This document shows positions 22,550 through 64,000 of a stretch of 64,000 nucleotides of DNA, in pieces. The stretch is taken from assembly GCF_910596095.1 (NCBI RefSeq), contig NC_056533.1:7103001-7167000 (forward strand), read 5' to 3'. This DNA is from Thunnus maccoyii (taxonomy: Eukaryota > Chordata > Actinopteri > Scombriformes > Scombridae). The translations under genes were made by a program, and so were the position numbers. Numbering within the stretch: position 1 is the stretch's first letter; every line of letters begins with the position of its first letter. The notes below the pieces were generated by a model, which was given only the letters and a program-made list of their open reading frames with translations, had not been told where the DNA came from and made no database searches.

Positions 22550-22624
22550 TCAAAGACTGCCATAACAGACGGGTTTCTTAAAATAAAGTGCCCAAATAAA
22601 CATTGCAATAGGTTTTTCTTGCCA

Positions 22625-23215
22625 TAATTATTCCTCCTCTTCATACTGGCCATTAGAAGATCCCTTTATGCACTCAACAATGTAAGTGATGGGGGCCAAA
22701 ATCCACAAGCCTCCCTCTGTACAAAAATGTATTTAAAGGTTTATCTGAAGCAAATATGAAGTGCCAGCCATCCAAATGAGTCAAATCTAGTAGATATCTT
22801 TCGACATTACAGTCTTTTTAGTGCCAAAGTCCCTCCTTTTGTTACTATACTTCCATCACAGCTCAACACGGAAACACTGAATGAGGAAACACAAAGAGGT
22901 AATTTGATGCTAAAAAGACTGTAAATGTGGCAGATATCCACTTGATATGACTAACTCAGACTGCTGGAGCCTCATATAAGCTTCAGATCAACTTTTTAAA
23001 TGCATCTTTTTACATAATGACTACTATGGCATGAGGTCATGGCCTGTGGATTTTGGCCCCCATCACTAACATTGAAAGTGCATTTGAAGGGGATCTTTTA
23101 ATAGCCAGTATGAACAGGAGGAATGATTACAGTGATGAAAACCTCTTTCAGTCTTCATATGAGCATCTGACTGTTGTTTTAAGACAGACTTGAAAAATTG
23201 TGAACCTATATCTTT
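22625..23215. mobile_element. Foldback (long inverted repeat) element, full copy
   Basis: The left half (about 22640-22890) is the reverse complement of the right half (about 22890-23195). For example, CATACTGGCCATTAGAAGATCC is mirrored by GGGGATCTTTTAATAGCCAGTATG, and ACAGTCTTTTTAGTGCCAA by TTGATGCTAAAAAGACTGT. No coding capacity. Related copies lie at about 33415-34350 and 55195-55670. Non-autonomous element, superfamily not determined. Confidence 0.75.
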
Positions 23216-37323: not shown

Positions 37324-40300
37324 AATAAACAATAAAAGTCTTCCATGACTGTCTCCAAAGTGATATCCCCTGGACCAGGCAAGTCATACAGTAGATACTT
37401 AGCCGATACTCAGAAAACTCTTCTGTGTGAAGGGTAATATGCATCTTTTTGATTTCATGATTGAGCAAATTAATTGTTTCCCAGAAGTACTTTTATGTAT
37501 CACCTATATCAACATTGTGTTTTTAATTCATCAAGAAGCCTAACAGCCTCATATCAAAAGAGTTTTATTACAAAGAATACATGAATCATATAGTTGTAAT
37601 GCCATATAACCTCATGCTTTGCTGAAATATCAATATGTTGGTAGTGTTTTGAGGACAGAATTGTAATATGCTGAATAAAAGGCCATGATGTGTCAAACTT
37701 CAATCATTGGATGGTGAATTCAAGAGGTGAGGTGACAATCAGTCCTTATTGGTAAAACAAAATACTTGTTTACTGCTATAGTAATGTTCAAATTGTCATA
37801 AATTGGACATTAAAGCTTTTAAAACTTTACACAACATGCATGCAACAGACATGATACTATAAAGTCTAGCCTAGGTATTCTGATACTGTGATTTCCTTCT
37901 CACAGCATCAATGAATTCACTATTTAACTATCATTAACTATTCAGCTGAACAGTTTATGATGTTGTATATGGTATCATTGTAATCCTTGGCCATCAAAAC
38001 ATAGGGGTAGACATCACTTTTTCTGTGTTATCACGTTTGGTTCAGGTGATATGATGCAATATACATAATTAGGTTATGGAGGAAAGTAAACTGGTCGCCA
38101 TGGCTCCATGCGATGGCTCCGTTTCTGAAAATGTTCAGGGCCCCAATCTGTACGAGTTTCATGCTTTTATGAAAAAGTGAACATATCACCTCAACTTTGG
38201 CACATATCACCTGGACTAAGCCAGATTTATATAAACTGCAGTGGGAAATTACAGGTTTTTGAAGAATAATTACAGTAAAGAGTTCTTTCACCTATTTCAC
38301 ATACATATAGAGTCTGGGATATTACAGTGTCCACATGCAGTCATCTCACAGGTCATGGAATCATTTCAGCTTTTGGCTATAACATTCCCACATATCATGC
38401 TAAATTATAATCCTACCACGTTAAAGTGATCTTCAGAACAAATTATGTTTTGTGTGAATATTTTTTATGTGTACTTGTGTTTTTTTAGGCTTAGGGGAGT
38501 CCTACTCATGAACACACTGTTTACATCCCATCCTCAGCTCTACAGAGGAGCAGAGGTACTGCTGGTGATCACTGTGCTCAACAGCACTTACTTCAAGGTC
38601 AGTGGCTTGCGAGAATCAAAGTTTCCTTCAAACTCAACAACAAAAAAGCTTGTTTGTCAGTATGTTCCAGAACTATCAAATGACCATTACAGAAATAATT
38701 CATATGACTGTTTCCTGATCTGCCACCTGGTTACGGTTAGGTTCAGTTAAGTTGGTTAAGTTTCGTTTTTTAGGCAGAAACACACCTTGGTTAAGTTTAC
38801 GGAACAATTGTGGTCATGGTTAAAAGAAAGCATCACTGACTGTCAGTGGAATATAGGTCAGTGTCACCCGACCACCAACTCTGACGTCCCTCAGAGGTTT
38901 TCCTCAGAGGCTACAACAATGTCACGATACTTTGTCTTTTGCTATTAAAAACCAAAAGTCAAATGTTGCACAACCACAAGGAGTACTTGTCAGGTAAATG
39001 TGAACATGGATAATTTTAGCTGTCCTTGCTGTTGCTTTTCCTGTGTGGACAGTCTCAAGGACATTATTTGAAGCCACAGAATTAATACTAATCACGATTA
39101 AATATGGATAAATTGAATGAGGTGAATTAGGGAAGTAGGGAAGTATTCTCTAGCTTTGAGAAAACAAATTCAGGAAGACCCTGATGTTTGCGACTCCTTC
39201 ATGCGACTCCTTCATGTTGGCTTCCTCCATGCAGCTCCCTCCAAGTTCTGGCAATCCTTGTACACATATTTTGAAACCTGATTTACCTCAAATTAACCTT
39301 TTCCTAGTACTCATGTCACATGTCCTCTCTGTCTCTCTTTTCAGCTGAGTCTCCCGCGGGCAAAAGGACAAGGGAGAGCATTCACACCCAGCCAGCCTAC
39401 CTTCAGGCAAGACACTGTTATGGGGGAGTCAGTGCTGGTAGTCAAGGCAGGGAACTTTCCAGTCAGAAACCTCTCACAACCCATCAAATTAACCTCCAAA
39501 CACAACAAAGAGGGAAAATGACTAAACCAGTTGTGCTAGCATTACAAAAGTGTCACAATCTGCTTTCCTCTTATGTTTTTGTAATATATGTTTCAGGTGG
39601 AAAATGGGACTTGTGTGTTTTGGGAGGAGTCAGAGCTGGGTGATGGAACAGGTGGGTTACATACAGCAGATAAGTCTACAGTGAGATTAACCTCAATTTT
39701 TCTCTCAAATAAAAATATTAACTCTTTTATATGTGTCTGTGTGTTTTCAGGTCACTGGAGCCCAGACGGTTGTCATGCCACCTTCACTGAAACTGAGTGT
39801 ATTTGTAGCTGCAACCATCTGAGTTTCTTTGCTGTGCTTGTGGTAAAATCTTTCAACAGAACATTTCCTCTCACTATCAGCTCTCTTACCAGCCACATCG
39901 CTACCTCATGTGCTGAATAATGTCCCTCCCATTAAAAGAAGCTTTCAGAAGCTTGCTGAGTTTTAAATAACTGAGTCTATAAAATAGCAGCCTCCGTCTC
40001 CAATGGAAAATGTAATTTGTTTATTCATAGTTGTTTCTGATAGTTTGAGCTAGAAATTTCTATCAAATTTCCATAGCAATTGTTGTGTAATTTTACTTTT
40101 GATGGTAATATAGGAGTAGAAAAATTCACTTGCAAAAAGGGAACCATGTTGTACTTATATAGGGAACCGCCCTAGTGATAAGCTTTCTACTGTTTAGAGT
40201 CTGAGCTTGTCATAGAGACATAGAGTAGAGCTGTACAGTTCTGCTGTGGAGTGAATGAACCTAAAAAAATTATCAATATTTTATATTGAAGACCCATCGG

Positions 40301-40475
40301 GCTTAATACAACTTAATACAAATATTTCATGTTTATTGCATCTCTTCCTGTTCCAGAGGGCCCTAGCATCAGTGGATGTAAGAAATGTTGTGAACCTTGG
40401 CTATATCACCTACATTGGACCTGCACTCTCCGTCTTCTTCACAGCCAACAGCTTGATCATCTATATATGTCTACA
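37324..40475 (+). pseudogene. Unit 1: broken ADGRG3-like receptor copy lacking TM2-TM7
   Basis: Paralogue of units 2 and 3. Recognisable exon relics: exon 2 about 37324-37378, exon 3 about 37644-37726 (in-frame stop), exon 4 38489-38597 (stop codon as second codon and a 20-bp net deletion relative to the 129-bp intact exon), exon 5 39345-39512, exon 6 39597-39651, exon 7 (GPS, CSCNHLSFFAVLV) 39751-39842, exon 8 (TM1) 40357-40475. The donor after exon 5 is GG instead of GT (39513-39514). No counterpart of exons 9-12 lies between 40476 and 45900. Homology to the intact units stops at about 41030. Exons 6-8 are almost unchanged, while exons 2-4 are heavily decayed. It cannot encode a receptor. 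Confidence 0.88.
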
Positions 40476-41030
40476 GTGAGTTTTTTCTACATCCCTTTTA
40501 CTCAAGAGTGTAGAGAGGGCAGTGGTGCCTAAAGGTTAGCGAAAGTAAGCTTGTCACTAGAAGGTTATCGGTTCAATCCCCTGGACCGGCAGCATAAATC
40601 ACGGTGGGGAAAGTGAAAAGCAGTACTTGCCCCTCCCTCATTACCATCACTGAGGTGCCCTTGAGCAAGACCCTTAACCCCAACTGCTCCAGTGGAGCTG
40701 CTCAGTGGCAGCAGATCAGACTGTGGTTGTACTGGGCAGCTTCCAGGTGTGAATGTGTAACTGTGTGAATGTGATCAGGGCATTCCTGAAAAAAAGAGCA
40801 CTGCTCTCCTGAATAAACAAAGGTGAAAAAAAATCAAATGAAATATCATAAAATTGCCATGTTAAAAAGCGATTATTTTATGTTTTTAAAAAATGTGTTT
40901 CTTCCTTTTTGTCAAGTTTTACAATATATGACAAAAATATGACAACAAAAGCAATATGTGTGAGTTAAGTGTGTGCATTTGAGTGTTTGAGTTACTACAG
41001 GACTGGTTTCACAAAGTAACTGCATTTCCT
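39403..41030 (+). repeat. Segment of unit 1 nearly identical to units 2 and 3
   Basis: From AGGCAAGACACTGTTATGGG inside exon 5 to the sequence after the SINE, unit 1 matches unit 2 (from 49230) with a constant 9827-bp offset over exons 5-8 and only scattered substitutions. Immediately left, the first 58 bases of exon 5 differ at about one base in four. Confidence 0.85.
40513..40830 (+). repeat. tRNA-derived SINE in unit 1 intron 8
   Basis: The tRNA-like head GGCAGTGGTGCCTAAAGGTTAG is followed by an RNA polymerase III B-box-like GGTTCAATCCC (40570-40580). The conserved body (GAGGTGCCCTTGAGCAAGAC; GATCAGACTGTGGTTGTACT) ends TGAATAAACAAAGG and an A-rich tail. The same insertion sits at the same place in units 2 and 3, so it predates their duplication. 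Confidence 0.8.
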
Positions 41031-41044
41031 TCCTGTAAAATATA

Positions 41045-41220
41045 ATAACTCATTACATTATGTGCATAAAATTATTACATTATGCACTCACCATTTTTAT
41101 TACATTATTAGCAGATTATTACATTATGAATTGTTTTTTTTTTTTTTTTTTTTTTACATATTTTTATTACATTATGCACAGTTATTGCATTATGAGTTTC
41201 TACAGAGTCCACTAGAATTA
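41045..41220 (-). repeat. ATTACATTATG-rich element, inverted relative to units 2 and 3
   Basis: Repeated TTATTACATTATG motifs, a T-run of about 21 bp, and GCATTATGAGTTTCTACAGAGTC. This is the reverse complement of the element at 51005-51205 and 61545-61740 (GTCTGTAGAAACTCATAATG). It begins within about 15 bp of the point where unit 1 stops matching units 2 and 3. Confidence 0.7.
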
Positions 41221-45919: not shown

Positions 45920-48900
45920 ATGATGTTGATGACTCTTTGTCTCGTCTCACTGGTCTGGGTATCTACGAGTCAAGCTGTTGGTGAGTGTTTTTGTGTTTAT
46001 TTTGTGTTAATGGTTGTGTGCTCATGAGGTGAGCACCATTTGAACTGTTAATATATACAGACAGGTGAAAAATTAAAGGAAAAACTGGTCCAGGTCTGAA
46101 TGCTTGACCCTTACAGTGAGGGGATCTGGTGGCTCTGTTATACTTGACGTTATTAAAAAGACAAATATGTCTGATTGACAAGAGCCGTGACACTGTTTAC
46201 ATAAAAGTTGGTAAACTCTTCAAGTAAAGGCGTGGAATGCCCGCCCACCTCAAGGTGTAATTAGTAATAATTAGTCGGTCAGTCTTAACAGCTTGAGCAC
46301 CTGGTGTGGAAGTTAGTATTCACACAGACTATCTCAGTGGGCATACTAACTAACTTAGGCTGAAGTTAACATTACAGAGCAAGAAGAAGAGATGGAGCTA
46401 GCTCACCGAGTGCCCTGGCTTCCTGCTGTGGCAGCGGCACAGAGGGCTAGGGATTTTTTAAAGTAAATTGCACTTTAATTGAAGTAAATTGCACTTTAAT
46501 TGTGTACTTGTGTTTTAATAAGGGGTCAAGTGGACCAAAACCATGCCAGCAAAATGCCCCCCACAGCATAACAGAGCTGCCAGATCTGCTCACTGTAGGG
46601 GTCAAGCATTCATACCTAGACCGGTTTTTCCTTTAATTTATCAACTATGTATAAATATCAAGGTCATAGATCATCAGACCTAGACAAAAACAATGTCGCT
46701 CATGGTCCTCTGCTGCCCAACGTTAGTGACTCTAAACCAGCCTGGGGTGAAACACAAAACACCAAAGTTCCCCCGCGTGAGTGGTGAACAGTTTCCTCTC
46801 ATGTTCTTATTCTGGAGTGAGATCTGTCATTAGCATGTTTTATCTTGTACTGTCAATCTTGTATCCAGTGTGTATCCATCCATACACTGTACTATCTTAA
46901 ACTATTTGACTTTCTTTCTCTGTCACTCTGACAGGCTCCTGTGCAAATGTCTTCCATGAGTGTCAGAAAAGTAATGTCTCCTGGACCAGGTAACTCATTC
47001 AGTGGATACTAAGCTCATGCTGTAGATCTTACACTCCTCCTTTTAAGGGCAATATACATCTATCTACTACACCAATGTTCCCTGATGTCTAATGAATGCT
47101 GGAGTAGCTTTGATATGATTGTGAAAGACAACCTGAAAGTAAAAAAGGACATAAAAAAGCGACTGAGCAAATGAATTATAACATACCGTATATCATATAC
47201 ATGACTCTGTGAATATCAAGGTTTTGAGCTTTTTCTCAACCCATAAATGACTGTGTACGATAATCCTTAAATTAATGTCACAAATCTGCAATGTTTTCAC
47301 TCAGCAGGACCAGTAGTTGTTAATCTAAAAGTTTTCTCATAGAAATAATTGATTCATGTAGTTATCTTTCTGTATAACTTTGCTTGGTTTGCTGAAATGC
47401 TGAAATGTGTCTGTGTTGGTAGGTGTTATGACTACAAAATTCGAAAATGTAGACAAGGACGTCATATTATGCCAAACTTCATTAAACGGAGGGTGAACTC
47501 GTCTCAAGAGGTGAGGTCAAAATTTGGGGTAACAGACCCTGCAGCTTCTGTCTTGGTTCTTAGAGGTAAAACTATATGAAAGTTTTATATGAAATTCACC
47601 AACAAATGAGCAAAACAGGAGAAAAAAATGTTTTTGTGTTGTTCATCAAGAGTGATTAAAGACAGAGAATAATAATTATTTTACATATTCCACATCATAC
47701 ATACGAGTTCAGGATGTCTTTCTTGGAACACGTCTAAAGACCAGAACAATTAAAGTCATCCTCAACAAGTTCATTTCTATAATTTTTTTTCATTGTTGTA
47801 TTAAATACATGTTTTCCTTGGTGTTTGCGATGTCTTTGTGTGTACTTGTGTTTTTTAGGCTGTGGAGAGTCCTACTCCTGAACACGGGGTTCACATCCCA
47901 CCCTCAGCTCTACAGAGAATCAGAGGAGCTGATCCTGAGGAGGAGGTACAGCTGGTGATCACTGTGCTCAACAGCACTTACTTTAAGGTCAGTACCTCTG
48001 AACATGCAAAATTTGAGCTACAGGAGACTTCTTTATCTTAATCCCTCCTTGGTTGCCTGTATTAATTCAATACTAATCACAATGGACATGTAAATACAGA
48101 GAAGTAGGTGAATTAGGGAGTTTTTTCAGGATAATAGATTAACACCTTGATTCCACTGGGCACGGCTGTGTCATGTTCCAGCTTTGGCGTGGTTTTGTGC
48201 CATCCTTTGCATGGTGTCATATCCCACTGGGAGCGTTTCAGAAGCAGAGCATTTTGCTCCATCAGCGCCAGAGAGAAGACAGCCACCCCTCTACCTGGAT
48301 AAGAAGCCAGGGCAGTCATGGCAGCAGTGGTGCTAGAATAGGGGGGACAACAAGACTTTTTGTGCCCCCACTTTCAGGTGTTATGGTAATGAAGTGTTGA
48401 CGTCTAAGCCAGGTATTACAGTCATAGCAATAATGTCTAAGCCTACTCTAACATGCTGGACCTTAAAATTCAGTTATAATCAGAACACAGAGTAGCCCAT
48501 TATGGCTGCCAGTTCAGAATAGTTAAATAATTTGACCACCAAATACAACACTGGATCCATTTTTCGTGCAATGACCAGCGCAAGCAGCACATGGACAGTT
48601 TGGTATTTTCCTGATGTTGAAATCTGCTGCGTCCGTGTGTAGAATTGTTGTGCCCAATGCTGCATGGTGAACTGATGGGAGGTGATGTGCAAATAGGCAG
48701 CACAAAGCGGATTGTTGGTGTTTTTGTGAAAAATGGGTCTTAGACATCTCAGGACCACATCTGTTTCTGGAGCAAAGTCACTCTGCTGCCACTTGGTGAT
48801 TTTATAAGTGTTGTTTCATTAATAATAAGTGGTGAGTTGCTTCTTGGACACTTCTGAAATGTGCTGCAGTGTGTCTAGTGGGATCACAAGCATTGACTGG

Positions 48901-51900
48901 AGTGGCCGCGCAGCTGGAACACGACACACAATGGAATCAAGCCATAATGTTGGTTTCCACTTTAAGTTGGTTGCATTTTCTTTTCATGCTGATTTGCACT
49001 GGTTTCCATAAACTCTGTATGACCAAAGTCAGCTGTTGTGTACTATTAAAATCAAGGAAAGGTTGATACTGTAGTTCATACTGTTGCAATTCCTCTACAC
49101 TTTACTTCAAATTAATTCATCCCAGCATTCATGTCATGCTTCACTTCTGGCACTTTTGTCCATTGTTGCAGCTGAGTTCCCCGCTGCCAAAAGGACGGGG
49201 GAGAGTACTCAGACCCAGCCCTCCTGTCCACAGGCAAGACACTGTTATGGGGGAGTCAGTGCTGGTAGTCAAGGCAGGGAACTTTCCGGTCAGAAACCTC
49301 CCACAACCCATCAAATTAATCTTCAAACACAACAAAGAGGTAAAATGACAAAACCAGTTGTGCTAGCATTACAAAAGTGTCACAATCTGCTTTCCTCTTA
49401 TGTTTTTGTAATATATGTTTCAGGTGGAAAATGGGACTTGTGTGTTTTGGGAGGAGTCAGAGCTGGGTGATGGAACAGGTGGGTTACATACAGCAGATCA
49501 GTCTACAGTGAGATTCACCTCAATTTTTCTCTCAAATAAAAAGATTAACTCTTTTATATGTGTCTCTGTGTTTTCAGGCCACTGGAGCCCAGACGGTTGT
49601 CATACCACCTTCACTCAAACTGAGTGTATTTGTAGCTGCAACCATCTGAGTTTCTTTGCTGTGCTTGTGGTAAAACCTTTCAACAGAACATTTCCTCTCA
49701 CTATCAGCTCTCTTACCAGCCACATTGCTACCTCATGTGCTGAATAATGTCCCTCCCATTAAAGGAAGCTTTCAGAAGCTTGCTGAGTTTTAAATAACTG
49801 AGTCTATAAAATAGCAGCCTCCGTCTCCAATGGAAAATGTAATTTGTTTATTCATAGTTGTTTCTGATAGTTTGAGCTAGAAATTTCTATCAAATTTCCA
49901 TAGCAATTGTTGTGTAATTTTACTTTTGATGGTAATATAGGAGTAGAAAAATTCACTTGCAAAAAGGGAACCATGTTGTACTTATATAGGGAACTGCCCT
50001 AGTGATAAGCTTTCTACTGTTTAGAGTCTGAGCTTGTCATAGAGACATAGAGTAGAGCTGTACAGTTCTGCTGTGGAGTGAATGAACCTAAAAAAATTAT
50101 CAATATTTTATATTGAAGACCCATCGGGCTTAATACAACTTAATACAAATATTTCATGTTTATTGCATCTCTTCCTGTTCCAGAGGGCCCTAGCATCAGT
50201 GGATGTAAGAAATGTTGTGAACCTTGGCTATATCACCTACATTGGACCTGCACTCTCCGTCTTCTTCACAGCCAACAGCTTGATCATCTATATATGTCTA
50301 CAGTGAGTTTTTTCTACATCCCTATTACTCAAGAGTGTAGAGAGGGCAGTGGTGCCTAAAGGTTAGCGAAAGTAAGCTTGTCACTAGAAGGTTATCGGTT
50401 CAATCCCCTGGACCAGCAGCATAAATCACGGTGGGGAGAGTGAAAAGCAGCACTTGCCCCTCCCTCATTACCATCACTGAGGTGCCCTTGAGCAAGACCC
50501 TTAACCCCAACTGCTCCAATGGAGCTGCTCAGTGGCAGCAGATCAGACTGTGGTTGTACTGGGCAGCTTCCAGGTGTGAATGTGTAACTGTGTGAATGTG
50601 ATCAGGGCATTCCTGAGAGAGAGAGCTCTCAGTGAAACTCCCCCCTGAATAAACAAAGGTGAAAAAAAAAAACAAATGAAATACTGTAAAATTGTTAAAA
50701 AGCGATTATTTTATGTTTTTAAAAAAATGCATCTTTTCTTTTTTTTTCAAGCTTTACAATATATGACAAAAATATGACAACAAAAGCAATATGTGTGAGT
50801 TAAGTGTGTGCATTTGAGTGTTTGAGTTACTATCGGACTGGTTTCACAAAGTAACTGTTTCCTTCCTATAAGATCAAATATATCAGATATCTTCAGATGT
50901 GGTTTAGTCTTCTTGATCAAGAGCTTGTTTTCCTGTTTCTATCATACTGATATTTTTTGACCTATTTGATCACATTGCTTCTCTTTACTTGTTTATTTAA
51001 ACATGGCTCTAGAGAGTCTGTAGAAACTCATAATGTAATAACTGCACATAATGTAATTAAAAAATATGTAATAAAAACTCAAAATGTAATAATAATGTGA
51101 TAAAAATGGTGAGTGCGTAACATAATAACTTTTTGCACATAATGTAATAAGTTATTACATTTTGAGTTTAGTGGCAACTTTTTTGTTAAAAATGTAATAA
51201 CTTAACATATGCTTTCAGGTCCATTATGTTCAGAATTTCATAAAGAGCACCTTTTCCATTCCAGCCATCTCCTCATGGCTTGCATGATCTTCATTTAAAT
51301 CATGCCCCATGTGTTGTCAAGCATAGGGTTACCATTCAAATGCAAACCACACACAATTGTTCTTTTATGTGCATTTTAGGTGTTTTATGTACTAAAATAA
51401 TGTACACTATCCCAGAATCCACATCGGAAAGAGGCCAAAGCCAAAAACAGAAATAAAATATTGGCAAATCTAGTTCAGTCTATGAATGCATAGATATTAT
51501 AAATGTATAAATTATGTATATGGAACCTTGTGAATTGTTTGTCAGAAATTAAAATCTTTGAAGTTTAGTTCTGTATATTTGAAACATCTAAATGCTTGTA
51601 TGTCAACTTATTTTTTACAAAAACAAGATAATTATGAGAAATCCCTGTTGCACTACAGCAAAAACAGCAATATGAGTATAAGTCATGACTGGTAAGACCC
51701 AATCAGGAAGTGAACATGGGTGCCTGCATCATTGGTTTTAAAAAAGTCGCAATCCAAGAGTTTTCAAACTAAAATAGGGTCAGCAGCATTTTCAAAATTC
51801 TCTGTTTTAGGGGTTCGCAAACACTGGAGTAGTGTGGATGCTAGGCATTAATGTAGCAAATGTTGTGCGTTTTAAAACAAAAATGTATTAGTGTGGTTGT

Positions 51901-53687
51901 AGTATGTGTCTCTTTTATGTTTGAGTAGGCCTTGTGTAGTGTTGTAGACTGCTGTGTCCATTTTACGTTCATGTTATTCCTGTGTAAGAAAGACATGGTA
52001 GACATGGAGACAGTGGACCTAGCCTGTTGCTGTCTATCGGTGGTGGTGCTGAACCGTTTGTCAATCAATGCACGTAGTGCTCCGCATGCTATCCTCGGTG
52101 CTGAAACACTTGAACACTTGAACCTGGCAACCTGTTTTTTTTTCCTTCAGAATAAGCTTGCTTGACAAAGTGCCTTCACTATATGTTTTCTTAGACATGG
52201 GCTTGCTTGGCTCAATAAGTGACAATTTGTGTTTATGGATAGGATAGGATCCATCAGCGTTTTGACAGGTTTGAATTTTTAAAATGACTTTATCAGAAGG
52301 GCCCCTCGAAAATGCACCGACCCCTCTGCGCTGAGAGTCTAGCTCCGCCCCTGCCTAGTATCTTTTATTTACTGTAGAAATACTGTAAAAATGTAATACT
52401 TAATGATTTGCTGATACAGACCGATACACACGCCAACATGTGAATAAGGGGAGTACCGGCACTTATTTTTTTCCACTTCAAGCACTGTTATTAGCACATA
52501 CTACACATGACACATGATATGAGTGTTGCACTACAAAATTGACTTAATATACTATTTTCCTTCCAGAAATTGGCGTCCAGAGAAGGTGATCGGTGTGCAT
52601 ATGCAACTAGCAGGGGCACTGCTCTGCCTCCACCTCAGCTTTCTGGTGTGCAGTATGTTAGTGTTGCAGCAGAATGAGAACGAGGAGGGCTGGGTTTGCC
52701 AAGTTATGGGTCTCATTTTACACTGGTCCCTGCTGGCCACCATCAGCTGGACAGCTCTGGAGGGATTCCATCTCTACCTTCTCCTAGTCCAAGTCTTAAA
52801 CGTGAAGAGATACCTGCTCAAACTCAGCTTGGTGGGATGGGGTGAGTAGATTCTGAGTTGGACAGTGAAACTGTCGAATAGTTGTTGCATTTCATTTAAT
52901 TTCCTTAAATCAATACATGCAACCATACAGTCGGGGCTTGTGGACATAAACTCTGTCTTTCATGTCTTTATGCAGGTCTTCCTACACTGATTGCAGTGGT
53001 TTGTGGGGTTTCAGGTGTTTATGGAAAATACAGTCTGGAACTGAGGGATGCCAACAACCACACAACAGTGCAGATGTAAGAAACCAAGATTCATTGTTAG
53101 GATTTTAAATATGTAACCACCTTGGGTGTTTGAATTTTCAGCAAGTATACACTGTGATTTGCTCTGCTCTTCCTTATTCTCCACCAACAAGCAGGTTATT
53201 TGGAATTCAAAGCTTTCTGCTTAAACATTTTTCCCAACCTGCAGGTGCTGGATGAGCAGCAAGTTCCCACAGAGGCTTTTGATCAGCTATGTCATTACTA
53301 TGGCCCTTCTGTTACTGTTGATACTGTGTAATTCCTGTATGCTGGGACTGGTGGTGTGCAAGCTGCAGGGGCTGAGAGGAGGTGGCGGGGATGTGATGAA
53401 CAGAGAGAAAGGAAGCAGGTTGTGGAAGGACTGTGCCACAGTGCTGGGTCTCAGCTGTGTTCTGGGGTTACCATGGGTGTTAGGCAGCATCACCTTAATC
53501 TCCCTCCCCCAGCTGTACCTGTTCACTGTACTCAACTCCCTGTCAGGTCAGTATGTTCTGGATCCTCGTAGAGTAAATATTGCTTATATGTAAGACTGGA
53601 AGACAAATTTACAGCTTTTCTTTTCTCCCCTCAGGTGTATTTGTGTTCCTGTGGTCATGGTCTTTGATTGACGAGCCTCAAAGATAA
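45920..53687 (+). CDS. Unit 2: adhesion G-protein-coupled receptor, ADGRG3 (GPR97)-like, complete, 498 aa
   Basis: Exons: 45920-45980, 46935-46989, 47423-47510, 47859-47987, 49172-49339, 49424-49478, 49578-49669, 50184-50302, 52567-52841, 52976-53075, 53245-53546, 53635-53687. All junctions are GT-AG, in phase, totalling 499 codons with stop. The signal peptide is MMLMTLCLVSLVWVSTSQA. A short cysteine-bearing N-terminus (residues about 21-68) follows. GAIN is about 69-216, with VHIPPSAL, CVFWEESELGDG and GPS residues Cys193, Cys202, Cys204 and Cys206. HL/S places cleavage between Leu209 and Ser210, and the tethered agonist starts SFFAVLV. TM1 is about 230-252; TM3 has FHLYLLLVQVLN; a cysteine (CWMSS) lies in extracellular loop 2. 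The tail after TM7 is under 10 residues (LIDEPQR). The original ATG (45820) runs into a stop after an 88-bp insertion; the ATG at 45920 restores an in-frame signal peptide. Units 1 and 3 are its tandem paralogues. Confidence 0.93.
46060..46655. mobile_element. Tc1/mariner-type element remnant with inverted ends in unit 2 intron 1
   Basis: The left end GGTGAAAAATTAAAGGAAAAACTGG (about 46064) is mirrored by CCGGTTTTTCCTTTAATTTATC (about 46620-46641). GGTCTGAATGCTTGACCC and GGGTCAAGCATTCATACC are also inverse. The minus strand carries a Tc1-like transposase scrap (LWGAFCWHGFGPLDP). Not able to move by itself. Confidence 0.65.
48146..48941. mobile_element. DNA element with about 35-bp inverted ends in unit 2 intron 4
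   Basis: The left end CCTTGATTCCACTGG...TGTCATGTTCCAGC is mirrored by the right end GCTGGAACACGACACACAATGG...AATCAAG. It is absent from the corresponding intron of unit 1. A 92-codon minus frame inside (48480-48758) is conserved in unit 3, but I do not recognise a transposase. Confidence 0.55.
50345..50670 (+). repeat. tRNA-derived SINE in unit 2 intron 8
   Basis: Orthologous insertion to those at 40513 and 60880, with B-box GGTTCAATCCC at about 50397. It carries a GAGAGAGAGCTCTCAGTGAAA segment before the A-rich tail that the unit 1 copy lacks or has altered. Confidence 0.8.
51005..51210 (+). repeat. AATGTAATA-rich element in unit 2 intron 8
   Basis: Contains GTCTGTAGAAACTCATAATG, TGCACATAATGTAAT (twice) and AAAATGTAATAA. 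AT-rich, no coding capacity. The same element is in unit 3 (61545-61740), with an inverted relative at 41045-41220. Confidence 0.65.
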
Positions 53688-53903
53688 TGGATACCGGTCT
53701 CAATAACTAATATACAATGCTAAAACAAATGTTTCATGTGTAACCTTTATTAGGTGTTTTGGTGTCCATGTATAATGGACAGTCCAAATATAATCAAATC
53801 TGAACAATAACTTGATTTGCTGATGGTCAAATGAAATCGCATTTAATATTATTATCTAATTTAATGGTTTAATGGTAATTTAATTGGTTGGAGATGCCAA
53901 AAA

Positions 53904-53909
53904 AATAAA
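53904..53909 (+). terminator. Candidate polyadenylation signal of unit 2
   Basis: AATAAA about 217 bp after the unit 2 stop codon, in an A-rich context. Confidence 0.35.
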
Positions 53910-54404
53910 ACACAAAGTAAAGACAACTAAATCAGAGGAGATCATCTATAAAAATCCTGTATGACCTGTATGACCCTGAAAATCAATTTAAAAATTTGAC
54001 ACATATGACAATAAAACAGTTCAGAAGTGCCTGTAACAATGGTGAAAGATAAGGCACAGATGGCTGCAGCAGAGGGAACAAAGGACAGCTTAAATCTTAT
54101 AGTTTTGATCTTACTTTGCAATGTCCTGCCTCTGTTGCTCACTCAAACCTCTGGTGTAGGTGATGTGTACAGTATTTTAGGATCCCATACATATTTAAAA
54201 TCTGGTCATTGCAAAGTTGTGCTACTGTTCAAATGTACTCTTTGATTTCAAATATCTTAGTCGCTTTCTTTATATTTATGATTCTTAACACACACATTGA
54301 CAAACATATAAATCAAGCCAAAAGTTAAGTAACTCTGTGACACCAACTTGTAAAGAGTTGAAGGACACTCTGACTGACCCAAGAAAAACATTCTTTGCTG
54401 CAGT

Positions 54405-54407
54405 GTT

Positions 54408-54475
<68 letters not shown>

Positions 54476-54477
54476 TA
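54405..54477 (+). repeat. (CTTT)n microsatellite
   Basis: About 18 uninterrupted TTTC/CTTT repeats in the unit 2-unit 3 spacer. Confidence 0.97.
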
Positions 54478-55194
54478 CATTGCAGATTATTTTCAAGACT
54501 CTTTCAAGGGCTCATCAGAGTAATCATCAGGTCCCTGTTTGTCTTACAGTAGCATGAACATTATTTTTACATCATCTAATCTCTCTAATAACACATACTG
54601 TGTTTAATGTTTTGTAATATATTATGTTATATTATATAAATTGATTTTTGATTGTTGATTATTTAATCATGTTTAACAATATGGCTAATGATATGTTAAC
54701 AATATGATAGAATAACACCTTTTATTGAACAGAAGTTGCCATACAAATTTAGTAAATACAAAACAATTTTTATTTACATTACATATTAATCTATTATTAA
54801 TAAGAAATTAGAAACAAGCTCAATTAGCAAAAGTATAATTACAAGAGATGTAACCACTAAAATTAAATGCAAAATGATTTATTGAGAGATGATTTGGCGC
54901 AGACTCAACTACCATTGTGCTCCATGGCTTGTTATAGCACCGCCTGGTGGATTGGTGATGTTTAGTCACACCTAGTGGAGAAGAAGGAGGATGGAGGTGG
55001 AGAGGAGGAAGAACAAGAACAAAAGAGCAACAAGAAAGACAACTTCAACTCCAGTGAAGACTTCAGGAATCAAATCTGATTAGAACCCCAACCCTTTCCT
55101 GACATTAGTCCATATGATAAAGCCCAGATGTAATCAAACTTCCCCTGATAATCCCCCATCATGTAACTATAGCAACATGTAAGTCTCCTAATAA

Positions 55195-55670
55195 CCCTGC
55201 CAAAATCCACAGTGTGTCCACACAGTCATTTTGTGCAAAAGTTAATCTGAAGTTTATATGAGGCTTCAGCAGTCTGAGTTAGTCATATCAAGTGGATATC
55301 TGCCACATTTACAGTCTTTTTAGCATCAAATTCCCTCTTTGTGATTCTTCGGACAGTGTTTCCCTGCTAAGTAACAAAAAGAGGGACTTTGGCACTAAAA
55401 AGACTCATTTAACGATATCTAATTGATTTGACTCATTTGGATGACTGAAGCTTCATATTAGCATCAGATAAACTTTTAAATACATTGTTGAACAGAAGGA
55501 GGACTGTGGATTTTAGCCTTCGTCACTTACATTGTAAGTGCATTATGAAGAGATCTTCTGATGGTCAGTATGAACAGGAGGAATGATTATGACTAGAAAA
55601 ACCTATTTCAATGTTCATTTGGGCACCTGACTGTGGTTTTAAGAGAAATTTGAAAAGTTGTGAGCCTGGC
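55195..55670. mobile_element. Foldback element copy in the unit 2-unit 3 spacer
   Basis: Shares GAGTTAGTCATATCAAGTGG, ACAGTCTTTTTAGCATCAAA, GGCACTAAAAAGACTCATTT and GTATGAACAGGAGGAATGAT with the copies at 22625 and 33415. The arms are opposed, as there. Confidence 0.7.
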
Positions 55671-56728
55671 CTTTATATCAGTTTTCATTAAAGTTTTTTC
55701 CCTCACAAACCTTGAATATTGCATGTGTTTATGAATAAAATAAAGCATTATAGGAGAATGTCGAGTTTTGCTAAAGCCAATTTCATTTTTTTCATGTGAG
55801 CTGCCACCTTTGGAACACATTAAGTGATGCAGGTCTGACTTTCACTTCCCCCGCTAACAGTAAGTGTCTGAATTGTTGACCACTATGACTTGACTTCTTT
55901 CTGCTTGCGTATTGGAAAAGCGTCACATTTGAGAAGCTTCCCCTTCATTCTAGGCAGTGCCTAGAATGAAAAATCATTATAAAATATTTCCATCATTTGT
56001 TTCTATGAACAACTACAAACATGTATGTGATATTGTCTATTGTAAATGATATAACTAATAAATAACATTTTAGCTTGGCTCAGTGATTTATATAAATATT
56101 TCCCTAACTGAGACCACACCGAGAACATTATATTTCAATAGTTTAATTGAGATAATGAACGAGAGCTGATATGTTGATGGATGGGTTGGAGAACATGATG
56201 AAGGATTAGGGATGGAGGGATGAAGTGATGGGGAGAGGAAAGGGGTGAGGTGTGAGAGTTGAGGAACATAGAATGGAGGGTTAAGGGACGATGATGGATG
56301 TATGGTATGTCGACTGGACGACGACTGCCGACAGTAGGGAGGTAGGAGGGAACAGGGGGGAGAGGTTGAGACTCTGAGTGGGGGAACTGTCTCTCCGGTC
56401 CATCGCCTGGATAGAGCCCCCTGTTCCTGTGTTAAAACAGAGGAGAAAGGATGGTTGATGAAAAGAGGGGTTAGGGTGGGAGGGACTTGCAACTGAGACC
56501 AGGGGAGAAGAACGGATGGGGTGTGCCTAAATACTTTGTAGTGCGGAAGTGGGATGTGTACTCGGTGTGGTCTCTGTTCCCGAACCTTGTTTATAAATCT
56601 ATAAACTTCATAAGTCATTCTCTCATGAGCAGATAAATATGTCAATTAGATTTCTTTTAAAACTCAACTTCACTAGCTCTCTGTAAAAATCCTTATGTCA
56701 TTGTACTTCGTTTGAAAACATATCTGAT

Positions 56729-59700
56729 ATGGATCACTTCCTGTCAACCCTGACTCTTTGTCTCGTCTCACTCGTCTGGGTTTCTACAACTCAAGCTGAT
56801 GGTGAGTTTTTCCACATGTTTATTTTGTGTTAATGGTTGTGTGCTTGTGAGGTGAGCACCACTTGAACTGTTAATATATATATATCAAGGTCGTGAATCA
56901 CCAAACCTAAAACCCAAAGGCACTAGTGACTCTACACCAGCCTGGGGTGAAACACAAAACACCAAAGTTTTGTACAGAGGGCACAGGGATTTTTTAAAGT
57001 AAATTGCACTTTAATTGAAGTAAATTGCACTTTAATTGTGTACTTGTGTTTTAATAAGGGGTCAAGTGGACCAAAACCATGCCAGCAAAATGCCCCCCAC
57101 AGCATAACAGAGCTGCCAGATCCGCTCACTGTAGGGGTCAAGCATTCAGACCTAGACCGGTTTTTCCTTTAATTTATCAAATATGTATAAATATCAAGGT
57201 CATAGATCATCAGACCTAGACAAAAACAATGTCGCTCATGGTCCTCTGCTGCCCGACGTTAGTGACTCTAAACCAGCCTGGGGTGAAACACAAAACACCA
57301 AAGTTCCCCCGAGTAAGTGGTGAACAGTTTCCTCTCATGTTCTTATTCTGGAGTGAGATCTGTCATTAGCATGTTTTATCTTGTACTGTCAATCTTGTAT
57401 CCAGTGTGTATCCATCCATACACTGTACTATCTTAAACTATTTGACTTTCTTTCTCTGTCACTCTGACAGGCTCCTGTGAAAATGTCTTCTCTGAGTGTC
57501 ACCAACGTAATGTCTCCTGGACCAGGTAACTCATTCAGTGGATACTAAGCTCATGCTGTAGATCTTACACTCCTCCTTTTAAGGGCAATATACATCTATC
57601 TACTACACCAATGTTCCCTGATGTCAAATGAATGCTGGAGTAGCTTTGATATGATTGTGAAAGACAACCTGAAAGTAAAAAAGGACATAAAAAGGCGACT
57701 GAGCAAATGAATTATAACATACTGTATATCATATACATGACTCTGTGAATATCAAGGTTTTGAGCTTTTTCTCAACCCATAAATGACTGTGTACGATAAT
57801 CCTTAAATTAATGTCACAAATCTGCAATGTTTTTACTCAGCAGGACCAGTAGTTGTTAATCTAAAAGTTTTCTCATAGAAATAATTGATTCATGTAGTTA
57901 TCTTTCTGTATAACTTTGCTTGGTTTGCTGAAATGCTGAAATGTGTCTGTGTTGGTAGGTGTTATGACCACAAAATTCGAAAATGTACGATAAGAAGCCA
58001 TGGTATGCCGTACTTCATTCAACGGAGGGTGAACTCGTCTCAAGAGGTGAGGTCAAAATTTGGGGTAACAGACCCTGCAGCTTCTGTCTTGGTTCTTAGA
58101 GGTAAAACTATATGAAGTTTTATATGAAATTCACCAACAAATGAGCAAAACAGGAGAAAAAAATGTTTTTGTGTTGTTCATCAAGAGTGATTAAAGACAG
58201 AGAATAATAATTATTTTATATATTCCACATCATAAATACGAGTTCAGGATGTCTTTCTTGGAACACGTCTAAAGACCAGAACAATTAAAGTCATCCTCAA
58301 CAAGTTCATTTCTATAATTTTTTTTCATTGTTGTATTAAATACATGTTTTCCTTGGTGTTTGCGATGTCTTTGTGTGTACTTGTGTTTTTTAGGCTGTGG
58401 AGAGTCCTACTCCTGAACACGGGGTTCACATCCCACCCTCAGCTCTACAGAGAATCAGAGGAGCTGATCCTGAGGAGGAGGTACAGCTGGTGATCACTGT
58501 GCTCAACAGCACTTACTTTAAGGTCAGTACCTCTGAACATGCAAAATTTGAGCTACAGGAGACTTCTTTATCTTAATCCCTCCTTGGTTGCCTGTATTAA
58601 TTCAATACTAATCACAATGGACATGTAAATACAGAGAAGTAGGTGAATTAGGGAGTTTTTTCAGGATAATAGATTAACACCTTGATTCCACTGGGCACGG
58701 CTGTGTCATGTTCCAGCTTTGGCGTGGTTTTGTGCCATCCTTTGCATGGTGTCATATCCCACTGGGAGCGTTTCAGAAGCAGAGCATTTTGCTCCATCAG
58801 CGCCAGAGAGAAGACAGCCACCCCTCTACCTGGATAAGAAGCCAGGGCAGTCATGGCAGCAGTGGTGCTAGAATAGGGGGGACAACAAGACTTTTTGTGC
58901 CCCCACTTTCAGGTGTTATGGTAATGAAGTGTTGACGTCTAAGCCAGGTATTACAGTCATAGCAATAATGTCTAAGCCTACTCTAACATGCTGGACCTTA
59001 AAATTCAGTTATAATCAGAACACAGAGTAGCCCATTATGGCTGCCAGTTCAGAATAGTTAAATAATTTGACCACCAAATACAACACTGGATCCATTTTTC
59101 GTGCAATGACCAGCGCAAGCAGCACATGGACAGTTTGGTATTTTCCTGATGTTGAAATCTGCTGCGTCCGTGTGTAGAATTGTTGTGCCCAATGCTGCAT
59201 GGTAAACTGATGGGAGGTGATGTGCAAATAGGCAGCACAAAGCGGATTGTTGGTGTTTTTGTGAAAAATGGGTCTTAGACATCTCAGGACCACATCTGTT
59301 TCTGGAGCAAAGTCACTCTGCTGCCACTTGGTGATTTTATAAGTGTTGTTTCATTAATAATAAGTGGTGAGTTGCTTCTGGGACGCTTCTGAAATGTGCT
59401 GCGGTGTGTCTAGTGGGATCACAAGCATTGACTGGAGTGGCCGCGCAGCTGGAACACGACACACAATGGAATCAAGCCATAATGTTGGTTTCCACTTTAA
59501 GTTGGTTGCATTTTCTTTTCATGCTGATTTGCACTGGTTTCCATAAACTCTGTATGACCAAAGTCAGCTGTTGTGTACTATTAAAATCAAGGAAAGGTTG
59601 ATACTGTAGTTCATACTGTTGCAATTCTTCTACACTTTACTTCAAATTAATTCATCCCAGCATTCATGTCATGCATCACTTCTGGCACTTTTGTCCATTG

Positions 59701-62700
59701 TTGCAGCTGAGTTCCCCGCTGCCAAAAGGACGGGGGAGAGTACTCAGACCCAGCCCTCCTGTCCACAGGCAAGACACTGTTATGGGGGAGTCAGTGCTGG
59801 TAGTGAAGGCAGGGAACTTTCCAGTCAGAAACCTCCCACAACCCATCAAATTAATCTTCAAACACAACAAAGAGGTAAAATGACAAAACCAGTTGTGCTA
59901 GCATTACAAAAGTGTCACAATCTGCTTTCCTCTTATGTTTTTGTAATATATGTTTCAGGTGGAAAATGGGACTTGTGTGTTTTGGGAGGAGTCAGAGCTG
60001 GGTGATGGAACAGGTGGGTTACATACAGCAGATCAGTCTACAGTGAGATTCACCTCAATTTTTCTCTCAAATAAAAAGATTAACTCTTTTATATGTGTCT
60101 GTGTGTTTTCAGGTCACTGGAGCCCAGACGGTTGTCATACCACCTTCACTCAAACTGAGTGTATTTGTAGCTGCAACCATCTGAGTTTCTTTGCTGTGCT
60201 TGTGGTAAAACCTTTCAACAGAACATTTCCTCTCACTATCAGCTCTCTTACCAGCCACATCGCTACCTCATGTGCTGAATAATGTCCCTCCCATTAAAGG
60301 AAGCTTTCAGAAGCTTGCTGAGTTTTAAATAACTGAGTCTATAAAATAGCAGCCTCCCTCTCCAATGGAAAATGTAATTTGTTTATTCATAGTTGTTTCT
60401 GATAGTTTGAGCTAGAAATTTCTATCAAATTTCCGTAGCAATTGTTGTGTAATTTTACTTTTGATGGTAATATAGGAGTAGAAAAATTCACTTGCAAAAA
60501 GGGAACCATGTTGTACTTATATAGGGAACCGCCCTAGTGATAAGCTTTCTACTGTTTAGAGTCTGAGCTTGTCATAGAGACATAGAGTAGAGCTGTACAG
60601 TTCTGCTGTGGAGTGAATGAACCTAAAAAAATTATCAATATTTTATATTGAAGACCCATCGGGCTTAATACAACTTAATACAAATATTTCATGTTTATTG
60701 CATCTCTTCCTGTTCCAGAGGGCCCTAGCATCAGTGGATGTAAGAAATGTTGTGAACCTTGGCTATATCACCTACATTGGACCTGCACTCTCCGTCTTCT
60801 TCACAGCCAACAGCTTGATCATCTATATATGTCTACAGTGAGTTTTTTCTACATCCCTATTACTCAAGAGTGTAGAGAGGGCAGTGGTGCCTAAAGGTTA
60901 GCGAAAGTAAGCTTGTCACTAGAAGGTTATCGGTTCAATCCCCTGGACCAGCAGCATAAATCACGGTGGGGAGAGTGAAAAGCAGTACTTGCCCCTCCCT
61001 CATTACCATCACTGAGGTGCCCTTGAGCAAGACCCTTAACCCCAACTGCTCCAGTGGAGCTGCTCAGTGGCAGCAGATCAGACTGTGGTTGTACTGGGCA
61101 GCTTCCAGGTGTGAATGTGTAACTGTGTGAATGTGATCAGGGCATTCCTGAGAGAGAGAGCTCTCAGTGAAACTCCCCCCTGAATAAACAAAGGTGAAAA
61201 AACAAAACAAATGAAATACCGTAAAATTGTTAAAAAGCGATTATTTTATGTTTTTAAAAAATGCGTCTTTTCTTTTTTTTCAAGCTTTACAATATATGAC
61301 AAAAATATGACAACAAAAGCAATATGTGTGAGTTAAGTGTGTGCATTTGAGTGTTTGAGTTACTATCGGACTGGTTTCACAAAGTAACTGTGTTTCCTTC
61401 CTGTAAGATCAAATATATCAGATATCTTCAGATGTGGTTTAGTCTTCTTGATCAAGAGCTTGTTTTCCTGTTTCCATCATACTGATATTTTTTGACCTAT
61501 TTGATCACATTGCTTCTCTTTACTTGTTTATTTAAACATGGCTCTAGAGAGTCTGTAGAAACTCATAATGTAATAACTGCACATAATATAATTAAAAATA
61601 TGTAATAAAAACTCAAAATGTAATAATAATGTGATAAAAATGGTGAGTGCGTAACATAATAACTTTTTGCACATAATGTAATAAGTTATTACATTTTGAG
61701 TTTAGTGGCAACTTTTTTGTTAAAAATGTAATAACTTAACATATGCTTTCAGGTCCATTATGTCCAGAATTTCATAAAGAGCACCTTTTCCATTCCAGCC
61801 ATCTCCTCATGGCTTGCATGATCTTCATTTAAATCATGCCCCATGTGTTGTCAAGCATAGGGTTACCATTCAAATGCAAACCACACACAATTGTTCTTTT
61901 ATGTGCATTTTAGGTGTTTTATGTACTAAAATAATGTACACTATCCCAGAATCCACATCGGAAAGAGGCCAAAGCCAAAAACAGAAATAAAATATTGGCA
62001 AATCTAGTTCAGTCTATGAATGCATAGATATTATAAATGTATAAATTATGTATATGGAACCTTGTGAATTGTTTGTCAGAAATTAAAATCTTTGAAGTTT
62101 AGTTCTGTATATTTGAAACATCTAAATGCTTGTATGTCATATATTTTTTTACAAAAACAAGATAATTATGAGAAATCCCTGTTGCACTACAGCAAAAACA
62201 GCAATATGAGTATAAGTCATGACTGGTAAGACCCAATCAGGAAGTGAACATGGGTGCCTGCATCATTGGTTTTAAAAAAGTCGCAATCCAAGAGTTTTCA
62301 AACTAAAATAGGGTCAGCAGCATTTTCAAAATTCTCTGTTTTAGGGGTTCGCAAACACTGGAGTAGTGTGGATGCTAGGCATTAATGTAGCAAATGTTGT
62401 GCGTTTTAAAACAAAAATGTATTAGTGTGGTTGTAGTATGTGTCTCTTTTATGTTTGAGTAGGCCTTGTGTAGTGTTGTAGACTGCTGTCCATTTTATGT
62501 TCATGTTATTCCTGTGTAAGAAAGACATGGTAGACATGGAGACAGTGCACCTAGCCTGTTGCTGTCTATCGGTGGTGGTGCTGAACCGTTTGTCAATCAA
62601 TGCATGTAGTGCTCCGCATGCTGTCCTCGGTGCTGAAACACTTGAACACTTGAACCTGGCAACCTGTCTTTTTTTTTCCTTCAGAATAAGCTTGCTTGAC

Positions 62701-64000
62701 AAAGTGCCTTCACTATGTTTTCTTAGACATGGGCTTGCTTGGCTCAATAAGTGACAATTTGTGTTTATGGATAGGATAGGATCCATCAGCGTTTTGACAG
62801 GTTTGAATTTTTAAAATGACTTTATCAGAAGGGCCCCTTGAAAATGCGCCGACCCCTCTGCGCTGAGAGTCTAGCTCCGCCCCTGCCTAGTATCTTTTAT
62901 TTACTGTAGAAATACTGTAAAAATGTAATACTTAATGATTTGCTGATACAGACCGATACACACGCCAACATGTGAATAATGGGAGTACCGGCACTTATTT
63001 TTTTCCACTTCAAGCACTGTTATTAGCACATACTACACATGACACGATATGAGTGTTGCACTATAAAATTGACTTAATATACTATTTTCCTTCCAGAAAT
63101 TGGCGTCCAGAGAAGGTGATCGGTGTGCATATGCAACTAGCAGGGGCACTGCTCTGCCTCCACCTCAGCTTTCTGGTGTGCAGTATGTTAGTGTTGCAGC
63201 AGAATGAGAACGAGGAGGGCTGGGTTTGCCAAGTTATGGGTCTCATTTTACACTGGTCCCTGCTGGCCACCATCAGCTGGACAGCTCTGGAGGGATTCCA
63301 TCTCTACCTTCTCCTAGTCCAAGTCTTAAACGTGAAGAGATACCTGCTCAAACTCAGCTTGGTGGGATGGGGTGAGTAGATTCTGAGTTGGACAGTGAAA
63401 CTGTCGAATAGTTGTTGCATTTCATTTAATTTCCTTAAATCAATACATGCAACCATACAGTCAGGGCTTGTGGACATAAACTCTGTCTTTCATGTCTTTA
63501 TGCAGGTCTTCCTACACTGATTGCAGTGGTTTGTGGGGTTTCAGGTGTTTATGGGAAATACAGTCTGGAACTGAGGGATGCCAACAACCACACAACAGTG
63601 CAGATGTAAGAAACCAAGATTCATTGTTAGGATTTTAAATATGTAACCACCTTGGGTGTTTGAATTTTCAGCAAGTATACACTGTGATTTGCTCTGCTCT
63701 TCCTTATTCTCCACCAACAAGCAGGTTATTTGGAATTCAAAGCTTTCTGCTTAAACATTTTTCCCAACCTGCAGGTGCTGGATGAGCAGCAAGTTCCCAC
63801 AGAGGCTTTTGGTCAGCTATGTCATTACTATGGCCCTTCTGTTACTGTTGATACTGTGTAATTCCTGTATGCTGGGACTGGTGGTGTGCAAGCTGCAGGG
63901 GCTGAGAGGAGGTGGCGGGGATGTGATGAACAGAGAGAAAGGAAGCAGGTTGTGGAAGGACTGTGCCACAGTGCTGGGTCTCAGCTGTGTTCTGGGGTTA
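56729..64000 (+). CDS. Unit 3: adhesion G-protein-coupled receptor, ADGRG3 (GPR97)-like, 3' end off the right edge
   Basis: Exons: 56729-56801, 57471-57525, 57959-58046, 58394-58522, 59707-59874, 59959-60013, 60113-60204, 60719-60837, 63097-63371, 63506-63605, 63775 to beyond 64000. Phases are identical to unit 2. 460 codons are visible, with no stop or frameshift. The signal peptide is MDHFLSTLTLCLVSLVWVST, uninterrupted, which suggests the ancestral start. GAIN, GPS (HL/S, SFFAVLV) and TM1 to about TM6 are nearly identical to unit 2 in amino acids. By contrast, the cysteine-bearing N-terminus (exons 2-3) differs at 13 codons. The end of exon 11 and exon 12 (TM7 and tail) lie outside. Substitutions seen in exons 4-11 are mostly silent (for example GTC/GTG and CCG/CCA in exon 5); one is I to V in exon 11. 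Confidence 0.93.
56975..57185 (-). mobile_element. Tc1-like remnant, right part only, in unit 3 intron 1
   Basis: Positional counterpart of the right half of the unit 2 element. The minus translation SSVMLWGAFCWHGFGPLDPL matches the Tc1 block GSVMLWGCFxxxGxGxL. The left half with its inverted end is absent. In its place is a diverged second copy (about 56884-56970) of the sequence that follows the element (TATCAAGGTCATAG...GCCTGGGGTGAAACACAAAA). Confidence 0.6.
58681..59476. mobile_element. DNA element with inverted ends in unit 3 intron 4
   Basis: Same insertion as 48146-48941, near-identical. It therefore entered before the unit 2/3 duplication and after separation from unit 1 (or was lost there). 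Confidence 0.55.
60880..61210 (+). repeat. tRNA-derived SINE in unit 3 intron 8
   Basis: Same insertion as in units 1 and 2, with B-box GGTTCAATCCC at about 60932. Nearly identical to the unit 2 copy. Confidence 0.8.
61545..61740 (+). repeat. AATGTAATA-rich element in unit 3 intron 8
   Basis: Positional counterpart of 51005-51210, with few substitutions. Confidence 0.65.

Follow-up and report, generated by a model that had tools for sequence, protein, structure and literature searches.

Within a tandem array of adhesion receptor genes in Thunnus maccoyii, two short exons at the 5' end of the coding sequence differ among the copies far more than the introns around them. The array was read in a 64,000-nucleotide stretch of DNA (the window), which is part of a 782-Mb assembly of 54 contigs. 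We propose that exons 2 and 3 have undergone recurrent diversifying selection on the tip of the receptor, with the introns of the cluster kept alike by duplication and gene conversion, and we put the probability of this reading at roughly 0.62.

If so, the locus would be an array of ADGRG-type adhesion receptors that diversifies its outermost module. Exons 2 and 3 would fold into a cysteine-locked helical hairpin atop the GAIN domain, and this hairpin would touch a partner that itself changes. Positive selection acting repeatedly on the exposed residues of the hairpin could then give each copy a separate recognition surface, and duplication and conversion would hold the surrounding introns, the GAIN domain and the seven-transmembrane (7TM) part alike. 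In all three copies concerned, the two exons have outrun the surrounding introns with the frame, the cysteines and the scaffold residues retained. Binding would feed one signalling unit: over exons 4-12, the proteins of units 2 and 3 are identical save two residues.

The receptor array and its predicted architecture

The array comprises a pseudogene copy, unit 1, and units 2, 3 and 4 (Table 1). The exon model of unit 2 (12 exons) translates, letter for letter, into a 498-residue database protein (P0001); from N- to C-terminus, it encodes a signal peptide, a mini-domain, a GAIN region with a GPS motif, and the 7TM part. Unit 3 passes the end of the window in its 3' part, with exons 2-11 extending to 64076 and exon 12 to 64218. 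A search for exons 9-11 in unit 1 gave no match.

Table 1. Features of the receptor array, in window coordinates
Feature	Position	Strand	Description
Unit 1, truncated pseudogene copy	37334..41047	+	in-frame stops, exon 3 and start of exon 4
Unit 2 receptor gene	45920..53688	+	12 exons, 498 aa; translation identical to P0001
First copy of putative tandem duplication	46439..56970	+	unit 2 exons 2-12, spacer, unit 3 exon 1
Island common to units 2 and 4	46765..47771 (unit 4: 69584-70581, outside window)	+	introns ~99% alike
Unit 2 exon 2	46935..46989	+	55 bp, hyperdivergent; first predicted helix of mini-domain, C23 and C30
Unit 2 intron 2	46990..47422	+	433 bp; 4 substitutions vs unit 3
Unit 2 exon 3	47423..47510	+	88 bp, hyperdivergent; second predicted helix (C40), C48, next loop
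Unit 3 receptor gene	56729..64000	+	putative start codon at about 56729
Unit 3 exon 2	57471..57525	+	
Unit 3 exon 3	57959..58046	+	
Unit 4	69.4-78.5 k, outside window		third copy, with exons 2-3 of its own

Several of the units have peculiarities of their own. At the 5' end of unit 3 (56560-56900), a deletion relative to unit 4 has taken away the usual start, so that an ATG farther upstream is now in frame with the signal peptide; this deletion may also affect the promoter of the unit. The transmembrane exons 9-11 of unit 4 are present in three tandem copies (window coordinates 76.1-85.5 k, outside the window), of which the second and third have stop codons in exon 9. Exon 7 of the same unit (72135-72227, also outside the window) is without one GPS cysteine that is present in units 1-3, and the cleavage domain may thus be altered. 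A further, more diverged ADGRG-like gene (exon 9 is 52% identical) lies upstream of the array at 27094-30163.

By sequence, the units are ADGRG-type adhesion GPCRs. Pfam places a GPS motif in unit 2 (PF01825; E = 8.9e-14, residues 171-214 of a query that differs from P0001 by two residues in length at exon 1), together with the secretin/adhesion-type 7TM_2 domain (PF00002; E = 6.2e-25). Among solved structures, GPR97 (7d76; E = 5.5e-54) is the closest in sequence, followed within the best six distinct sequences by ADGRG6, G2, G1 and G5. There are 396 homologues in the database; among the 120 listed, the named ones are fish proteins that mostly bear the name ADGRG1/3/5-like, and the closest are from percomorph fish. 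The term “ADGRG3-like”, used in the earlier note, is fair but loose; the database names of the relatives vary among G1, G3 and G5.

Exons 2 and 3 encode ~47 residues after the signal peptide, with two predicted helices and four cysteines. In an AlphaFold2 model built on 60 sequences (overall pTM 0.55), residues 21-60 have a pLDDT of about 90; helices are predicted at 23-32 (exon 2) and 37-47 (exon 3), and a loop then leads into the GAIN strands. These strands are predicted at 58-217, with a pLDDT that is mostly above 80 and falls under 50 at 121-127. The sequence CNHLSFFAVLV is present in units 2 and 3 and holds a putative HL/S cleavage site at residues 208-210, which would leave the mini-domain as the sole ectodomain segment not belonging to the GAIN region. 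A structure search with the whole model was led by full-length adhesion GPCRs and is uninformative on the mini-domain. In a sequence search against solved structures, nothing credible was found for the part encoded by exon 2; the similarity to one ADGRG1 chain (9s9u) sets in at the second helix, where it is weak.

ADGRG1/GPR56 proper is defined by an N-terminal PLL domain that precedes the GAIN domain. Such a domain is unlikely in unit 2, judging from the ~47 residues that precede exon 4, a Pfam search of this unit that found no domain beyond GPS and 7TM_2, and the alignment with the ectodomain of mouse GPR56 (5kvm), which begins only at chain residue 226. The units are like ADGRG3/GPR97, ADGRG1/GPR56 and ADGRG5/GPR114 in their GPS motif and 7TM_2 domain, but differ from these members in having a very short ectodomain, with ~47 residues between the signal peptide and exon 4.

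The arrangement of units 2 and 3 points to a tandem duplication. In alignment, they are collinear copies with a unit length of ~10.5 kb and ~0.8% noncoding divergence. When the spacer is included, 46439-55042 aligns with 56974-65544, and parts of 55056-56891 are 97-99% identical to 67977-69588; exon 1 of unit 3 therefore pairs with exon 1 of unit 4. The second copy of the duplication would run from 56974 to about 69.6 k, with insertions. If both duplicates came from one chromosome, their exons were identical at that time, and the present differences must be later.

Unit 4 is close to its neighbors only in places. In a 1-kb island around exons 2-3, its noncoding divergence from units 2 and 3 is ~1.2-1.5%, and a second close match to unit 2 covers exons 5-6 at about 49200-49500 (0-4 differences per 100 bp). 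The rest of unit 4 is 78-90% alike to unit 2 or unalignable, most other introns being far more diverged. Unit 1 has a 1.7-kb stretch over exons 5-8 (39339-41047) that is 95.2% identical to 49166-50880 in unit 2; its 5' exons are much more diverged from unit 2 than this island. We read the islands held in common with units 1 and 4 as gene conversion.

Exons 2 and 3 compared with their introns

Units 2 and 3 were aligned over 46439-53720 and 56974-64250, respectively, and 73 substitutions were found in the 7,272 aligned bases. Exons 2 and 3 together differ at 19 of 143 bp, the noncoding sequence at 47 of 5,835 and exons 4-12 at 7 of 1,294 (p = 1e-14 for the excess over exons 4-12). When the 73 substitutions were scattered uniformly in 20,000 trials, the fullest 88-bp window held no more than 9, versus 13 observed. 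The earlier note had reported 6 differences in the 55 bp of exon 2, in 5 codons, all of them altering (A/E, H/S, Q/H, K/Q, S/R), and 13 in the 88 bp of exon 3, in 9 codons, 8 of them altering (Y/H, R/T, Q/I, G/R, R/S, I/G, N/Y, K/Q). Both codon lists proved exact, and the ninth codon of exon 3 is silent (P/P).

The remainder of that comparison holds as well. The intron between the two exons, given as about 430 bp with about four substitutions, is 433 bp long and has four (47090, 47158, 47187 and 47298). The sequence just outside exon 3, described as almost unchanged, has no substitution over 47485-47683 and a single 1-base indel at 47579; exon 4 shows 0 differences, as stated; and the cysteines and the frame are indeed kept, in unit 4 as in units 2 and 3. 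Substitutions are likewise absent from 46780-46943, 46971-47089 and 47299-47432. Each of the two variable cores is thus flanked by 119-199 bp per side that are free of substitutions, and the flanking introns are far less diverged than exons 2-3.

Measured against the noncoding sequence, amino-acid change in these exons is greatly in excess. Between units 2 and 3, there are 16 nonsynonymous changes in 113.7 sites, where 0.9 would be expected at the noncoding rate (P = 5e-15); the nonsynonymous rate is ~17 times the noncoding one (0.141 vs 0.008, Fisher p = 2e-14) and exceeds that at the synonymous sites of exons 4-12 (4/305, p = 7e-7). Inside exons 2-3, pN/pS is not clearly above 1: it is 1.3 for units 2 and 3, and 1.7 and 2.4 for the other pairs, on ~26-27 synonymous sites. 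The N:S contrast between exons 2-3 and exons 4-12 reaches only p = 0.057. With pN/pS no higher than this, it is the contrast between exon and intron that carries the case for selection. Further, the estimated synonymous change in exons 2-3 is above the noncoding level between units 2 and 3 (3/27 sites, pS 0.11, p = 0.0015), although two of the three changes are in codons hit twice and the third borders a nonsynonymous change. The low pN/pS and the raised synonymous change together are the chief weak point of the selection reading and leave some weight with old alleles or imported exons.

Unit 4 allows the same contrast to be drawn among three copies. Its intron 2 (433 bp) differs from that of unit 2 at 3 sites and from that of unit 3 at 5; whichever two of the three units are compared, introns 2 are ~99% alike, and exons 2-3 are divergent. 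In these exons, 13/14, 14/14 and 8/8 codon differences alter the residue in the three pairs (35/36 in total). Over the gap-free sites of 46780-47683 (759 noncoding and 137 exon), the pairs 2-3, 2-4 and 3-4 have 18, 20 and 11 exon differences and 4, 9 and 11 noncoding differences, respectively, such that the exon rate is ~25, 12 and 5.5 times the noncoding rate. Unique changes are in excess in the exons of every copy: 13 exon and 1 noncoding in unit 2 (p = 2e-10), 4 and 3 in unit 3 (p = 0.013), and 6 and 8 in unit 4 (p = 0.012), which also has two whole-codon deletions in exon 2. One exon site is different in all three units. C23, C30, W37, C40 and C48 are kept in each of them.

The 13:1 ratio of exon to noncoding changes in unit 2 is more lopsided than that of units 3 and 4 together (p = 0.010), and this excess looks like a burst or an import of exon changes. 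At the 10 sites of exon 3 that are specific to unit 2, unit 1 agrees with units 3/4 at six, with unit 2 at two, and with neither at two. Unit 1 thus sides mostly with units 3/4, and unit 2 is mostly, not wholly, derived. The disproportionate change in unit 2 is a second reason to leave some weight with old alleles or a lost donor.

The differences are clumped, with 7 adjacent pairs where chance would give 2.3 over the exons (p = 0.003), or 4.1 if the variable spans alone are considered (p = 0.07). In a helical-wheel test, variability falls on one face of helix 1 (p = 0.0014); one-face variability was not significant for helix 2 (p = 0.26). Compensating one-base indels were considered as the origin of the unit 2 exon 3 block and rejected: a gapped alignment does improve the fit of this block, but random changes at those sites match it in 19-20% of 3,000 trials.

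The segment in other fish

The family alignment holds the 120 listed of the 396 homologues (119 relatives and the window's own protein) plus units 3 and 4. Mean entropy is highest in exon 2 (2.22), the signal peptide (1.99) and exon 3 (1.95); exon 5 has 1.87, and the other exons 0.78-1.44. C23, C30, W37, C40 and C48 are kept in 109, 112, 109, 116 and 116 of the 122 aligned rows, the remainder being mostly gaps. Of the 47 positions, 18 vary among units 2-4, and these 18 are also the more variable ones in other fish (entropy 2.81 vs 1.58, p = 8e-5).

Fifteen sequence pairs are close, with <10% difference over the rest of the protein. The mean difference in these pairs is 22.5% in exons 2-3 and 3-11% in the other exons; the signal-peptide segment is also fast (20%). 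Exons 2-3 are faster than the rest in 11 of the 15 (one-sided p < 0.01, uncorrected), in a set whose members are partly shared between pairs and in which some pairs are paralogues or other entries of one species; in the other four, the excess does not reach p < 0.01. Pairs with <40 aligned positions in exons 2-3, <340 elsewhere, or zero difference elsewhere were dropped, and P0001 was excluded. Two pairs with zero difference elsewhere were same-species entries with exons 2-3 also identical. With growing divergence, the distance in exons 2-3 climbs quickly and then plateaus near 0.5-0.6, as expected when few sites change freely.

The CYDxKIR motif of units 2-4 is found otherwise only in two Scomber proteins among the matches listed. 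In the tree, the nearest relatives of the GAIN region are two Pampus proteins.

Alternative histories and the possible role of the tip

The earlier note had proposed either diversifying selection or the conversion of exon-sized stretches from another paralogue. The evidence favours selection, short of proof, through the ~17-fold rate, the kept cysteines and frame, and the 11 of 15 fish pairs.

Balancing selection of the MHC kind could have preserved old allelic exons 2-3 as recombination and conversion homogenised the introns, and unequal crossing-over between haplotypes could have lined these alleles up as units 2, 3 and 4. We think this history unlikely. The pS of the exons is far above the 0.8% noncoding divergence, which could itself be an allelic, not a duplication, distance; yet the synonymous count consists of three ambiguous changes. 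The distance between units 3 and 4 in exons 2-3 (0.17) practically equals the GAIN distance (0.18), as if the exons had been old and conversion had reached the introns alone, and exon 3 of unit 2 resembles the “QGRH-MPNFI” form of some other percomorphs. However, divergence does not rise beside the variable cores, where the nearest 119-199 bp on each side have 0 substitutions. Further, when 115 sequences are placed in a tree, those of exons 2-3 from the three units cluster apart from the 112 others (support 0.93). This grouping argues against alleles common to the sampled lineages and suggests that the variants originated in this one.

Diversification confined to exons, with the introns conserved, is known from the antigen-binding exons of MHC genes and from the snake-venom PLA2 and three-finger toxin genes (“ASSET”). 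As in those genes, exons for a presumed contact surface outpace their neighbouring introns, and structural cysteines are kept; unlike those genes, the module is part of a seven-transmembrane adhesion receptor and comprises two exons, or 47 codons. Population polymorphism is the hallmark of the MHC, whereas the receptor array is known here from one genome. It is tempting to speculate that the tip is itself an MHC-like recognition cassette, in which many old or fast-renewed versions would circulate and be shuffled among tandem receptors by crossing-over and conversion, so that every fish would have its own repertoire of adhesion receptors directed at pathogens, gametes or self-markers; the odds of this are, in our estimation, rather poor.

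Another possibility is that short gene-conversion tracts brought in whole exon versions from a paralogue, either in the array or since lost. The islands that unit 4 has with units 2/3 at exons 2-3 and 5-6, and unit 1 with unit 2, suggest that conversion operates in this cluster; the clumped changes and the lopsided ratio of unit 2 would also suit it, and unit 3 has most of exon 3 and base 47298 in common with unit 4. We nevertheless regard this origin of the differences as improbable, because it needs two separate tracts that leave most of the 433-bp intron untouched, and because a donor with the same introns would need its own explanation. The earlier note had suggested that the genome be searched for donor paralogues with the unit 3 version of exon 3. 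In searches of the 782-Mb assembly, which score the best candidates only, no such paralogue was found outside the array: the unit 3 and unit 2 versions each gave three matches, all of them units 2, 3 and 4, and a family-like query gave four, all in the cluster, the fourth being pseudo-unit 1. Exchange within the array is possible, given that exon 3 of unit 3 is close to that of unit 4.

It is very improbable that the pattern reflects an error of assembly, mixed haplotypes or a local hot spot of mutation in place of selection. A single assembly was read, and synonymous positions in exons 2-3 are also above background, but an error is unlikely to respect exon borders, frame, cysteines and family-variable positions in three copies; P0001 is listed from a contig of another length (41,002,747 vs 40,996,314) and equals unit 2 exactly; and the equivalent segment is also fast in other fish.

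To our knowledge, many adhesion GPCRs are without a known ligand. A ~47-residue segment that outpaces its own introns by a factor of 5-25, according to the pair compared, and stands alone above the GAIN region indicates where a ligand may bind; the N-terminal domain may be “ligand-facing”, as the earlier note had it. That the segment is also fast in most close fish pairs suggests a co-evolving partner. The near-identical copies could serve as a natural domain-swap set. Exon 1 apart, the proteins of units 2 and 3 differ by only two residues outside exons 2-3, and differences in binding or signalling could therefore be traced to ~13 residues.

The window also contains repeats. A MITE-like inverted-repeat family is present at 22588-23209, 33368-34381 and 55237-55689, with copies about 69-89% alike. 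By its appearance, a SINE-like repeat occupies the intron after exon 8 in units 1, 2 and 3 (40634-40798, 50461-50674 and 60996-61209, respectively), and another copy lies at 4160-4373. On the minus strand, an open frame at 6312-6764 resembles an exon of a membrane-type matrix metalloproteinase.
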